Shown here piece after piece: positions 27,779 to 30,667 of a stretch of 64,000 nt of DNA. A program made the position numbers and the translations under genes. The notes below the pieces were generated by a model that worked only from the letters and a program-made list of their open reading frames with translations, ran no database searches and was not told the DNA's origin. Location of the stretch: positions 710,490-774,489 of the forward strand of contig JAVZEV010000001.1 in assembly GCA_038873195.1 (NCBI GenBank). The letters run 5' to 3'. Within the stretch, counting starts at the first letter, position 1. Each line of letters opens with the position of its first letter. Source of the DNA: Candidatus Bathyarchaeia archaeon (GTDB lineage Archaea > Thermoproteota > Bathyarchaeia > Bathyarchaeales > Bathycorpusculaceae).

Positions 27779-29191
27779 CTATTCTCCAAAGATTCGTCTG
27801 AAAGCAGGATACATTTCTGAGGCTCTTTCCTGCATCAATATTTCATAATATTGGTAAATTATGCCAACGGAAAGCAAAATACCCATTCCAGAACCGAAAA
27901 CTCCAAAAAAGTCCGTAATGCCAGCAATCAATGCTACGATTATTCCGCCAAGTACTGTGACTGTTGGAATATAACGTTTAAGAATGGATTCTACAGCTTT
28001 TCCTGAGCGTCTGTATCCAGGAATTTGCATGCCAGCGTCAACAAGCTGCTTAGATACTGTGGAGGGCCCTAGACCGCCGACTTCAAGCCATGTAAGTGAG
28101 AAAACAATACAAAAAGCAACGAGGATTCCAAGATATCCCACAGCCCTAAGTGGGTCTGCCATGACCTGGTCTAAACTGCGAGGAGAAGTCACATAGTACA
28201 CAAGACCTCCGGCTGGTTGAGGTCTGTTATTTACAATTTTATACATTCCTAGAAGGTTGAGCCATGGGTTTGTGTTATTTGGGTTAAACATACTCCAGAA
28301 GATTTGAGAAAACAAGTATATATTTGCGAAGAGGGCGGATGCAAAGATTACTGGAAGGTTGGACACGTAGAGAAGCTTTATTGGATATCTGCTGCGGAAG
28401 CCTCGGTAGCCAGCGTATGATAAAGGTAGCTCAACTCTTACACCTTCCATATAAATTATAATTAGAAAAGCCGCAATTGTAGCTATGAAACCGATTATGG
28501 AAGGATTTCCTCCTCTAATTAAGAGACCTCCTACTGATTGTCCGCTTGCCAAAGTCTGTGTTAAGGCTACGAAGAAACCGCGAGCACCAAATTCATCTAA
28601 AGGAATTAGTGCAAAACTGTCCCAAAATATTACTTGAGCCACTCCGGCCATTATGAAAAGGCTTATTCCGCTGCCGAATCCCCATCCTTTTTGGAGAAGC
28701 TCATCCAGAAGTAGAATAATTATTCCTGCTGCTATAAGCTGTAGAAAAACTATTACAGCCGTCGGGCCTGACAATGCGCCATACATTCCGCCAAGTATAT
28801 ATGCGGAAGCTTGGACGCCTGTAAGAACTATTGAAAACACTTTGCTGGCTGTGGTGAATAAGCTTCTGTCTTCGGGGTTTGACATGTCGCATTCTATCAT
28901 GGCAGAGCCTACTAGAAGTTGCAATATTAAACCCGCCGTGACTATGGGGCCTATGCCGAGCTCCATAAGAGTGCCGCTATGAGAAGCAAAGATTACACGA
29001 AGAGCTGCAAGTTCTGGCGCTTGCCCAGAAGGAATACCGTACAACGGAACTTCAGACATGACCAAATAGACTATTAGAACGAGCGCTGTCCAGAAAAGTT
29101 TCTCGTTAAAACGCACCTTTCGCTCCGGGGCCTTAATTTCTGGAATAATCCTTGCAATTGGTTTGAAAAGGTTTAGAAATCTGCCTGCCAT
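27779..29191 (-). CDS. secY: Preprotein translocase subunit SecY
   Basis: 470 residues with ten membrane helices and the SecY hallmarks: PLYGIPSG plug region, LGIGPIVTAGLILQLLVGS, LLDELLQKGWGFGSGISLFI and a PGYRRSGKAVESILKRYIP C-terminal region. It forms the Sec61alpha-type protein channel. The gene follows uL15 by 10 nt in the leftward ribosomal operon. Confidence 0.97.
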   Translation of the reverse strand: MAGRFLNLFKPIARIIPEIKAPERKVRFNEKLFWTALVLIVYLVMSEVPLYGIPSGQAPELAALRVIFASHSGTLMELGIGPIVTAGLILQLLVGSAMIECDMSNPEDRSLFTTASKVFSIVLTGVQASAYILGGMYGALSGPTAVIVFLQLIAAGIIILLLDELLQKGWGFGSGISLFIMAGVAQVIFWDSFALIPLDEFGARGFFVALTQTLASGQSVGGLLIRGGNPSIIGFIATIAAFLIIIYMEGVRVELPLSYAGYRGFRSRYPIKLLYVSNLPVIFASALFANIYLFSQIFWSMFNPNNTNPWLNLLGMYKIVNNRPQPAGGLVYYVTSPRSLDQVMADPLRAVGYLGILVAFCIVFSLTWLEVGGLGPSTVSKQLVDAGMQIPGYRRSGKAVESILKRYIPTVTVLGGIIVALIAGITDFFGVFGSGMGILLSVGIIYQYYEILMQERASEMYPAFRRIFGE

Positions 29192-29201
29192 GTACTAGCA
29201 A

Positions 29202-29642
29202 CTACTCCTGTGGTTCTACAGCCTCCATTTGAACCTCTCCACCGGCTTTCTTTATTTTTTCTGCGGCGGATTTGGAGCAAGAGGAGACTTTGATGATAAG
29301 TGGTTTTGTGACTTTGCCGGTGCCGAGAAGTTTAGTATAACCCATATTTTCTAAATCTATCAAAATTTTACCTTTTTCTTTACTTGTTGACATTTTTTCG
29401 GCTATTTCGTCAAGTTTTCCAACATTTATTATATTTTCTTTTTGTCTGAGGCTCTTAGGAGAAGTGAACCCTTTTTTCTCGAAATAGTCTGGTTCGTATC
29501 TTATAACGTATGACCAGCCGTGTTTGTGCCGTCCAGCTTTGCGGTAGCCTTTGGACCCGGATTTTCTATGCTGTCCTACTCTGCCGTAGCCTTGAGTTCT
29601 GGAACCGCGTTTTTTCCTGATTTTTCTGAGTTTATGCGGCAT
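29202..29642 (-). CDS. rpl15: Ribosomal protein uL15
   Basis: 146 residues; the basic N-terminus MPHKLRKIRKKRGSRTQGYGRVGQHRKSG and the C-terminal VTKPLIIKVSSCSKSAAEKIKKAGG are family-typical. Large-subunit protein. It starts 5 nt after the stop of the Hsp20 gene. Confidence 0.96.
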   Translation of the reverse strand: MPHKLRKIRKKRGSRTQGYGRVGQHRKSGSKGYRKAGRHKHGWSYVIRYEPDYFEKKGFTSPKSLRQKENIINVGKLDEIAEKMSTSKEKGKILIDLENMGYTKLLGTGKVTKPLIIKVSSCSKSAAEKIKKAGGEVQMEAVEPQE

Positions 29643-29647
29643 TTTCT

Positions 29648-30133
29648 TTAACCAGCCAGCTTATCTATCGCTTTTTCTTCAACATCTTTTTTTAGTCGGA
29701 TTTCGAGCACACCGTTCTTATATTTCGTGTGTATTTTGTCTGGAATCACTCTTTTAGGAAGATTTAAACTTTTATAGTATTTGCGTTCTGGACTTTCTGC
29801 GGATAAGGTTAATTTTTGGTTTTTCACGTGAATTTTCAGATTTTCTTTATTGAATCCCGTGAACTCGGTGACGACAATAATTTCATCGTTTTCTTCAAGA
29901 ATGTCTATAAGAGGTTTAGGTTCTCTCCATGCTCTTTCTATACGCGCCTTAGGCATTTTGAACGTGTAGAGATGAGCTTGCCTTTTAACCCTCAAGTTCC
30001 TAATTGGAAGCATTTGACGGGGTTTTCTGCTTCTAGTTTGATTTGCATTTTTTAAAATGTCTAGCCATTTTGAATGCTTTTTACTTCTTCGCCATTTCGC
30101 GCTCAATCTCACTTTCTCCTCAACGGAACGCAT
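29648..30133 (-). CDS. Hsp20/alpha-crystallin family protein inside the ribosomal-protein operon
   Basis: 161 residues. The C-terminal 90 residues form an alpha-crystallin domain: PLIDILEENDEIIVVTEFTGF, ENLKIHVKNQKLTLSA, YYKSLNLPKRVIPDKIHTKYKNGVLEIRLKK, including the NGVLEI signature. The first 60 residues are unusually basic (SAKWRRSKKHSKWLDIL, NQTRSRKPRQ), unlike ordinary small heat-shock proteins and more like a ribosome- or RNA-binding extension. It lies between uL30 (46 nt) and uL15 (5 nt) on the same strand. A chaperone role tied to ribosome assembly or nascent chains is inferred. Confidence 0.88.
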   Translation of the reverse strand: MRSVEEKVRLSAKWRRSKKHSKWLDILKNANQTRSRKPRQMLPIRNLRVKRQAHLYTFKMPKARIERAWREPKPLIDILEENDEIIVVTEFTGFNKENLKIHVKNQKLTLSAESPERKYYKSLNLPKRVIPDKIHTKYKNGVLEIRLKKDVEEKAIDKLAG

Positions 30134-30178
30134 CTCAAAAGTAGCTCCAAAGTATCTATAAAATGTATCGCAAAAGGC

Positions 30179-30667
30179 TTATATCATTCTCTTTATCAGT
30201 TCGTTGATTTTTTCTCCGCGATAGCCTAGCTCGCCACCTACCTTATAGCTTCTTTTTATTTTTCTTTTGAAGCCCTTGGTTGGTGGATGTAGCTTAAATA
30301 CTGGTTGTATATTTGGCAGCTTCCAATATTCAACGCGACCATTGAAAACTGATTCTGCAAGTTCTTCAAGAGACTTGTAACCAGTCTTTTGTGCATATTC
30401 ATCCGTTAGTTTTTTGTTTCCGAGAAGCTTTCCCTTCTCTTTTATCAGCATGTTTACAGTTTCTTGGGTAGCTTCGCCCCATGTTATGAAGTTTTGCGCT
30501 GTGGTTAGCATTCCAAGAAAGGATGGGCGGTCATCAATTAAAACTGCATAATTATTTCTTGTTAAGTGTAGCATTTGCAAGGTTTCCCTAACTTCTAGCG
30601 GAGCGCTAATTGTTCCGCGAATTCTCACGGCTATGATGCATTTTCGTCCCTTTTTTTCTTCCGCCAC
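30179..30667 (-). CDS. rpl30: Ribosomal protein uL30
   Basis: 162 residues, the long archaeal/eukaryotic form. IIAVRIRGTISAPLEVRETLQML at the start is the uL30 core and PPTKGFKRKIKRSYKVGGELGYRG is the C-terminal extension. Directly abuts the uS5 gene. Confidence 0.95.
   Translation of the reverse strand: MAEEKKGRKCIIAVRIRGTISAPLEVRETLQMLHLTRNNYAVLIDDRPSFLGMLTTAQNFITWGEATQETVNMLIKEKGKLLGNKKLTDEYAQKTGYKSLEELAESVFNGRVEYWKLPNIQPVFKLHPPTKGFKRKIKRSYKVGGELGYRGEKINELIKRMI

Follow-up and report, generated by a model that had tools for sequence, protein, structure and literature searches.

A small heat-shock protein (sHSP) gene with a strongly basic N-terminal arm is located directly before the genes for the ribosomal protein uL15 and SecY in a stretch of 64,000 nucleotides from a Candidatus Bathyarchaeia archaeon (hereafter, the window), and this arrangement is conserved in its relatives. 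The conserved basic-armed sHSP beside uL15-SecY suggests a chaperone that would act at the ribosome or at the export channel.

The sHSP gene and the conserved block

The sHSP gene is found on the reverse strand of the window at 29648..30106 (-), between the genes for uL30 (30179..30667, (-)) and uL15 (29202..29642, (-)), and SecY (27779..29191, (-)) is the third gene of the block. The sequence-only reading had proposed an alpha-crystallin-domain gene between uL30 and uL15 with 5 nt from its stop codon to the uL15 ATG, and this was borne out. The neighbouring genes for uL30, uL15, SecY and uS5 were identified by profile match, while one flanking gene, which we take to be uL18, was assigned by its place in the gene order.

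The open reading frame beginning at ATG 30133 encodes 161 aa (29648-30133, (-)). Its stop codon and frame were retained, but its start codon was replaced by TTG 30106 on the basis of the family comparison, giving a protein of 152 aa. In 38 orthologs of the groups f1 and f2, the start codon before the residues SAKWRR is TTG in 24, ATG in 12 and GTG in two (the placement failed for L041 and L043), and it is usually preceded by a Shine-Dalgarno-like GGAG. Many orthologs have an in-frame stop or no ATG 5' of this codon. The start was therefore placed at the codon shared by the relatives, ahead of which the window carries a Shine-Dalgarno-like GAGGAG at 30116..30121 (-), with a corresponding site in relatives. 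In the genus of the window, ATG 30133, about one promoter distance past the TATA-like box described below, may alternatively serve as a leaderless start.

Full-length protein matches were nearly all labelled Bathyarchaeota, with a few labelled Nitrososphaerota, Crenarchaeota or uncultured archaeon. The group f1 is probably Bathycorpusculaceae, because the matches include Bathycorpusculum (NCBI: Bathycorpusculaceae, Bathyarchaeales, Bathyarchaeia). A full-length ortholog was present in 42 of the 43 f1 genomes with a completeness of at least 85%. The other one, G084, has a paralog only, and an assembly gap is possible there.

Gene order was compared in two sets of loci, which are not independent because genomes are shared between them. 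In one set (L004-L041; 35 loci from f1 and three from f2), the sHSP was followed by uL15 and then SecY in 38 of 38 loci. The other set consists of the best 80 of 161 confirmed contigs and thus favours close relatives; it contains 74 orthologs (L072-L144, L146) and six domain-only paralogs located elsewhere. In this set, uL15 directly follows the sHSP in 73 of the 74 orthologs, and in the remaining one (L118) the contig ends after the sHSP. The position is therefore kept in relatives, and this recurrence excludes a single-genome artefact.

The upstream neighbour behaves differently. In the same 74 orthologs, uL30 is located less than 300 nt from the sHSP in 37 loci and at 0.3-3.1 kb in 16, and it was not found within at least 3.5 kb upstream in another 16; five contigs were too short to reach it. 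In L103, the gene 5' of the sHSP is unrelated and on the opposite strand with the box still present, and the open reading frames 5' of the sHSP in L097 also look unrelated. The sHSP and uL15 stay together throughout the 74 loci whatever uL30 does. Since uL30 is separable in relatives, the conserved block is sHSP-uL15-SecY.

A promoter-like box, GCGATACATTTTATA (GCGATA-NN-TTTTATA; 30157..30171, (-)), leads this unit and is conserved in the relatives, in which the intergenic order is box, spacer, Shine-Dalgarno-like site and start codon. From its sequence and its promoter distance, the box is probably a BRE with a TATA element. The pattern [GAT]CGATANNTTTTA was found 5' of the sHSP in 73 of the 74 ortholog loci from the best 80 of 161 contigs, L144 being the only locus without a match, and it occurred once elsewhere in 1.11 Mb of those loci on both strands. 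In L041, a contig equal in length to L144, the box reads CCGATACGTTTTATA. In 22 upstream regions of paralogs, the best matches to the box were two with three mismatches.

The exact box occurs once in the genome of the window (G000). That the box is a general promoter of this genome is not supported, since matches with up to two mismatches numbered 11 versus 8 for a reversed control pattern. No sign of an RNA-structured leader was seen, as 73 leader sequences gave no consensus RNA structure (RNAalifold 0.0). Among the spc-linked sHSPs of other groups, the box is exact in L061 and L160 of f6, has two mismatches in L159 and is one base shorter in L157 and L163 of the same group. It is weak, with three mismatches, in f4 (L043), and it was not found before the spc-linked sHSPs of f10, f12, f15, f22, f26, f28, f43 and f45. 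The GCGATA part is near-invariant across genomes in which the sHSPs are only about 35-60% identical. This conservation is stricter than BRE/TATA seems to need, and a specific factor may read the box. The earlier expectation that the sHSP is made in step with ribosomal proteins holds in part: the linkage to uL15 is kept, but the sHSP gene is not a passive rider in the operon, and by its sequence context it appears to open a unit of its own with uL15 and SecY.

Domain, tail and arm of the protein

The alpha-crystallin domain (29684..29917, (-)) is Hsp20.1-like, with a short beta5-beta7 turn replacing the long beta6 loop. The Pfam HSP20 profile (PF00011) matched aa 77-154 in the 161-aa numbering with 39.5 bits against a cut-off of 20.8. 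The archaeal Hsp20 equivalog NF041800 matched aa 71-154 only, with 92.6 bits, below its cut-off of 140, and the N-terminal half of the protein does not fit this model. In the AlphaFold2 prediction, the domain was confident (blocks of pLDDT 85-91) and the arm was low (45-56). The nearest structure was 4rzk, the alpha-crystallin domain of Hsp20.1 from S. solfataricus (Foldseek E 4.9e-9; Z 13.7, rmsd 1.8 over 85 residues). The predicted strands 98-104 and 109-115 are joined by four residues, and in the alignment the protein is shorter than Hsp14 at beta5-beta7 and hardly shorter than 4rzk. In canonical archaeal, plant and bacterial sHSPs, a long beta5-beta7 loop with beta6 makes strand-swapped dimers; the short link indicates that the beta6 loop of the Hsp16.5- and Hsp14-type sHSPs is missing here. 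The fold matches beyond sHSPs were CS domains (SGT1, PIH1D1 with Z 11.6 and Shq1 with Z 10.8), reflecting a shared fold; that no other family came up carries no weight. A PHROGs search returned one Hsp20 family and one weak unknown match and nothing else. Besides this gene, the genome encodes two further members of the HSP20 family. One, at G000:C1:28630-28890 (L001), is canonical and Hsp20.1-like with a tail ending in EPISID, and the other, at G000:C1:1110594-1110875 (L003), is Hsp14-like with a tail ending in YTIPVE.

The C-terminal tail (29651..29683, (-)) contains EEKAIDKLAG, forms a helix in the model and is without I-X-I. No clear case of I-X-I past the domain was found in the 37 rows of alignment A1, from which the ortholog rows L004 (identical to the window), L015, L041, L043 and L061 were left out. 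The pattern flagged four rows, of which three derived from the last domain strand and one, L035, read VAV; the two f2 rows have I-V-L or I-L-L. The tails of the paralogs are of the I-X-I/V type, with L158 ending in L-K-V. According to the available text of a review (PMC9133787), I-X-I takes part in oligomer formation, and the dimer of SsHsp20.1 protects substrates.

The N-terminal arm (63 aa; 29918..30106, (-)) opens with SAKWRRSKKHSKW. The very basic character assigned to it from the single sequence was confirmed by a net charge of +18 over the 64 residues preceding the domain. All 38 of the f1/f2 orthologs have a net charge of +9 to +21, with the values for L008 (45 residues) and L020 (53) covering part of the arm because its end was misplaced, and the corresponding region of 17 paralogs outside the spc cluster has -3 to +3. 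In the ortholog alignment, W5 and R6 are nearly invariant and the opening is KWRRxKKxxKWF-like. The low AlphaFold2 confidence, which includes a helix at residues 13-21, suggests that the arm is probably disordered, and a comparison of the arm alone with solved structures gave no recognisable relative (best E 2). The dN/dS values (NG86) were 0.05-0.18 for the whole gene in seven pairs and 0.07-0.20 for the arm alone in six of eight pairs, the six with usable dS. These low values indicate that the arm and the domain are both constrained by purifying selection. Within the family outside the genus, the sHSP is 40-62% identical versus roughly 54-90% for uL15, uL30 and uS5. Position and arm are both conserved, so neither of the findings that would have refuted the sequence-only reading, a gene placed here in this genome only or an unconserved arm, was made.

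Hsp20 genes in the same slot of other archaea

Hsp20 genes, mostly of canonical layout, occupy the slot between uL30 and uL15 in f4 (L043), f6 (L061, L159, L160), f10 (L152, L154) and f12 (L156). Others are located before uL15 in f6 (L157, L163) and f15 (L153) or after uL30 in f22 (L162, L165); the loci L152-L165 are a non-random sample, drawn mostly from strong matches. On the other hand, uL15 directly follows uL30, with no sHSP in the slot, in 13 loci of f9, in L053 (f4) and in L065 (f3). In 40 post-uL30 regions, 39 from outside the class and one from f13, Hsp20 was found between uL30 and uL15 in four (L172, L176, L180, L200). In L202, Hsp20 is located 0.7 kb after uL30 and then the contig ends. 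The Hsp20 gene of L162 is directly 3' of uL30 with no uL15 within 1.9 kb, and thus the f22 sHSP stays with uL30.

The operon-linked Hsp20s of f6, f12, f22, f26, f28 and f43 are mostly near-neutral and canonical; in this comparison the arm was counted from the first Met, and the values for L163 (218 residues, +16), L061 and L162 are approximate. The near-neutral Hsp20s of f6, f12, f28 and f43 show that an Hsp20 in this slot can do without a basic arm. From these sequences, the strong basic arm appears to be a trait of f1 and its sister f2, and not of all operon-linked copies.

A tree of the alpha-crystallin domain was constructed from 59 rows and 93 columns, leaving out L003, L222 and L223 (Hsp14-like) and L161 (domain identical to L162). 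The f1 sequences formed one clade (95/96) within a group of f1, f2 and f10 (100/92), and the other spc-linked copies scattered among paralogs. A single clade of spc-linked copies was not rejected by the AU test (p 0.075 with all 36 rows; 0.267 with the 31 Bathyarchaeia rows). The f10 proteins L152 and L154, from another order, are without clear I-X-I, have N-terminal regions of about +3 and +7 and are placed near f1/f2 on the tree. The likeness of f10 to f1/f2 may reflect shared descent or long-branch convergence. As for the origin of the arrangement, it may be old, with losses, or it may have arisen by repeated insertion into a favoured slot.

In the available text of PMC10833476, the S10-spc clusters of the Thorarchaeotes bin8, bin27, FW25 and BC and of the Odinarchaeote LCB are described as carrying an added Hsp20 gene, for which the authors suggest an unusual horizontal transfer; that text specifies no exact slot, arm or promoter. 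Since an spc Hsp20 is already published for Thor- and Odinarchaeota, the novelty does not lie in the location by itself but in the basic, IXI-less and promoter-leading form of Hsp20. Hsp20 is mentioned across Bathyarchaeia genomes in the available text of PMC8407382, the open-licence literature yielded no account of a Bathyarchaeia Hsp20 with a basic arm or a link to the ribosome, and the word stem "ribosom" is absent from the main text of the sHSP review PMC9133787.

Proposed role and comparison with known systems

The usual picture of small heat-shock proteins is that of stress-induced holdases that form oligomers and have no particular location. Our tentative preference, held at somewhat below even chances, is that the protein would be a specialised Hsp20.1 derivative, a small holdase that its arm tethers where proteins are made and that is co-expressed with uL15 and SecY. 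An Hsp20.1-type sHSP would have been fixed by vertical inheritance in Bathycorpusculaceae and f2 as the first gene before uL15 and SecY. Without the tail-into-groove contact, it would be a small species, a dimer or monomer, and not a large oligomeric store. The Lys/Arg/Trp-rich arm would anchor it on a negatively charged surface; the rRNA of the ribosome is the likeliest candidate, and lipid head groups around the translocon are a possible one. The domain would then hold nascent chains, or chains entering the membrane, independently of ATP, and co-expression with uL15 and SecY would match the amount of the protein to ribosomes and translocons.

The tethering to ribosome or translocon is suggested by the basic arm together with the gene context, and a basic arm equally suits binding to membrane, DNA or RNA in general. 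The only RNA-binding feature seen in the protein is this basic, probably disordered arm. The near-neutral Hsp20s in the same slot of f6, f12, f28 and f43, and the lack of any sHSP there in f9, f3 and part of f4, speak against the proposal. A chaperone of free ribosomal proteins, which are basic, is expected to be acidic, and the basic arm thus argues against such a function and in favour of a tether that faces RNA or lipid. NAC was found in 58 of 60 relatives. A replacement for a missing NAC is ruled out by this result, and the sHSP would act alongside NAC rather than in its place.

A wider form of the proposal appears unlikely to us. It would make the protein a non-oligomerising sHSP permanently tethered by its arm to ribosomes or the Sec translocon, under its own conserved promoter with uL15 and SecY, an ATP-independent co-translational chaperone of crystallin fold, with Hsp20 in the slot since before the Bathyarchaeia diversified.

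Among the other explanations, an ordinary sHSP in a highly expressed place survives best, and we regard it as possible but rather unlikely. On this reading the slot would supply abundant constitutive expression, nothing would tie the protein specifically to the ribosome or SecY, and its charge would be due to lineage drift of a disordered arm. Canonical Hsp20s fill the same slot in other families of Bathyarchaeia and Thermoproteota, the domain is plainly Hsp20.1-like, and the uL30-uL15 gap with its internal promoter is a convenient landing site. However, the block outlives the break-up of the operon, uL30 being non-contiguous in 32 of the 74 loci, with five more on short contigs. The arm charge is also uniformly high and under purifying selection, and I-X-I is lost here, perhaps also in f10, but kept by paralogs of the same genomes.

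A holdase tethered at the membrane or translocon, with the Trp/Arg/Lys-rich arm on anionic lipids near SecY and protecting inserting membrane proteins, seems quite unlikely. The gene is constantly linked to SecY as well as to uL15, the opening of the arm suits this function, and Hsp20 of Sulfolobus acidocaldarius interacts with membranes according to the available text of the review (PMC9133787). However, the immediate neighbour is uL15 and not SecY, and no transmembrane or clearly amphipathic segment was seen in the protein, in which the arm helix is of low confidence.

We consider it improbable that the protein is a lineage-specific ribosomal protein or assembly factor, that is, a stoichiometric or transient component whose tail binds rRNA, comparable to the extensions of many ribosomal proteins. 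Such a component would account for the basic disordered arm with a small beta-domain, the context of a ribosomal protein operon and the lost oligomerisation motif, and RNP-assembly factors with the CS/ACD fold exist, among them Shq1 and PIH1D1, both matched through their CS domains. However, the sHSP changes faster than its ribosomal protein neighbours, and some sister families have none in the slot. An autoregulator, whose arm would control uL15-SecY expression by binding the unit's conserved leader, fits the nearly invariant and sHSP-specific cis-box but is highly improbable, since the box resembles BRE/TATA at promoter distance, the leader is without consensus structure, and an f6 sHSP with a much less basic arm has the same box.

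If the tethered Hsp20.1 derivative is correct, an IXI-less and basic-armed sHSP kept with uL15-SecY would tie sHSPs to routine protein synthesis or membrane insertion. The Asgard spc-Hsp20, an oddity for which horizontal transfer was suggested, would also become a testable question on an old shared arrangement.

Comparison with known systems places the protein as follows. NAC is a ribosome-binding chaperone, which the sHSP would resemble if it is tethered; NAC is encoded by a separate gene in the relatives that have it, and its fold is unrelated to the sHSP fold. The domain is 45-46% identical to that of S. solfataricus Hsp20.1 and shares its short beta5-beta7 connection, whereas the sHSPs of the window family differ in the short, highly charged arm, the absence of a C-terminal I-X-I and the operon location. 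The canonical spc-linked Hsp20s (L156, L157, L163, L172, L176, L180, L200) are alike in their slot, lying between uL30 and uL15 or immediately 5' of uL15. They differ in a near-neutral N-terminal region (+5 in L157; unreliable in L163), in a retained I-X-I/V tail and, where it was read, in a GPDGKP..REFGNV-type segment, unlike the sHSP of the window family. The Hsp20 of Thor- and Odinarchaeota, compared through its description in the available text of PMC10833476, is likewise an HSP20-family gene in the spc cluster, as in the window.
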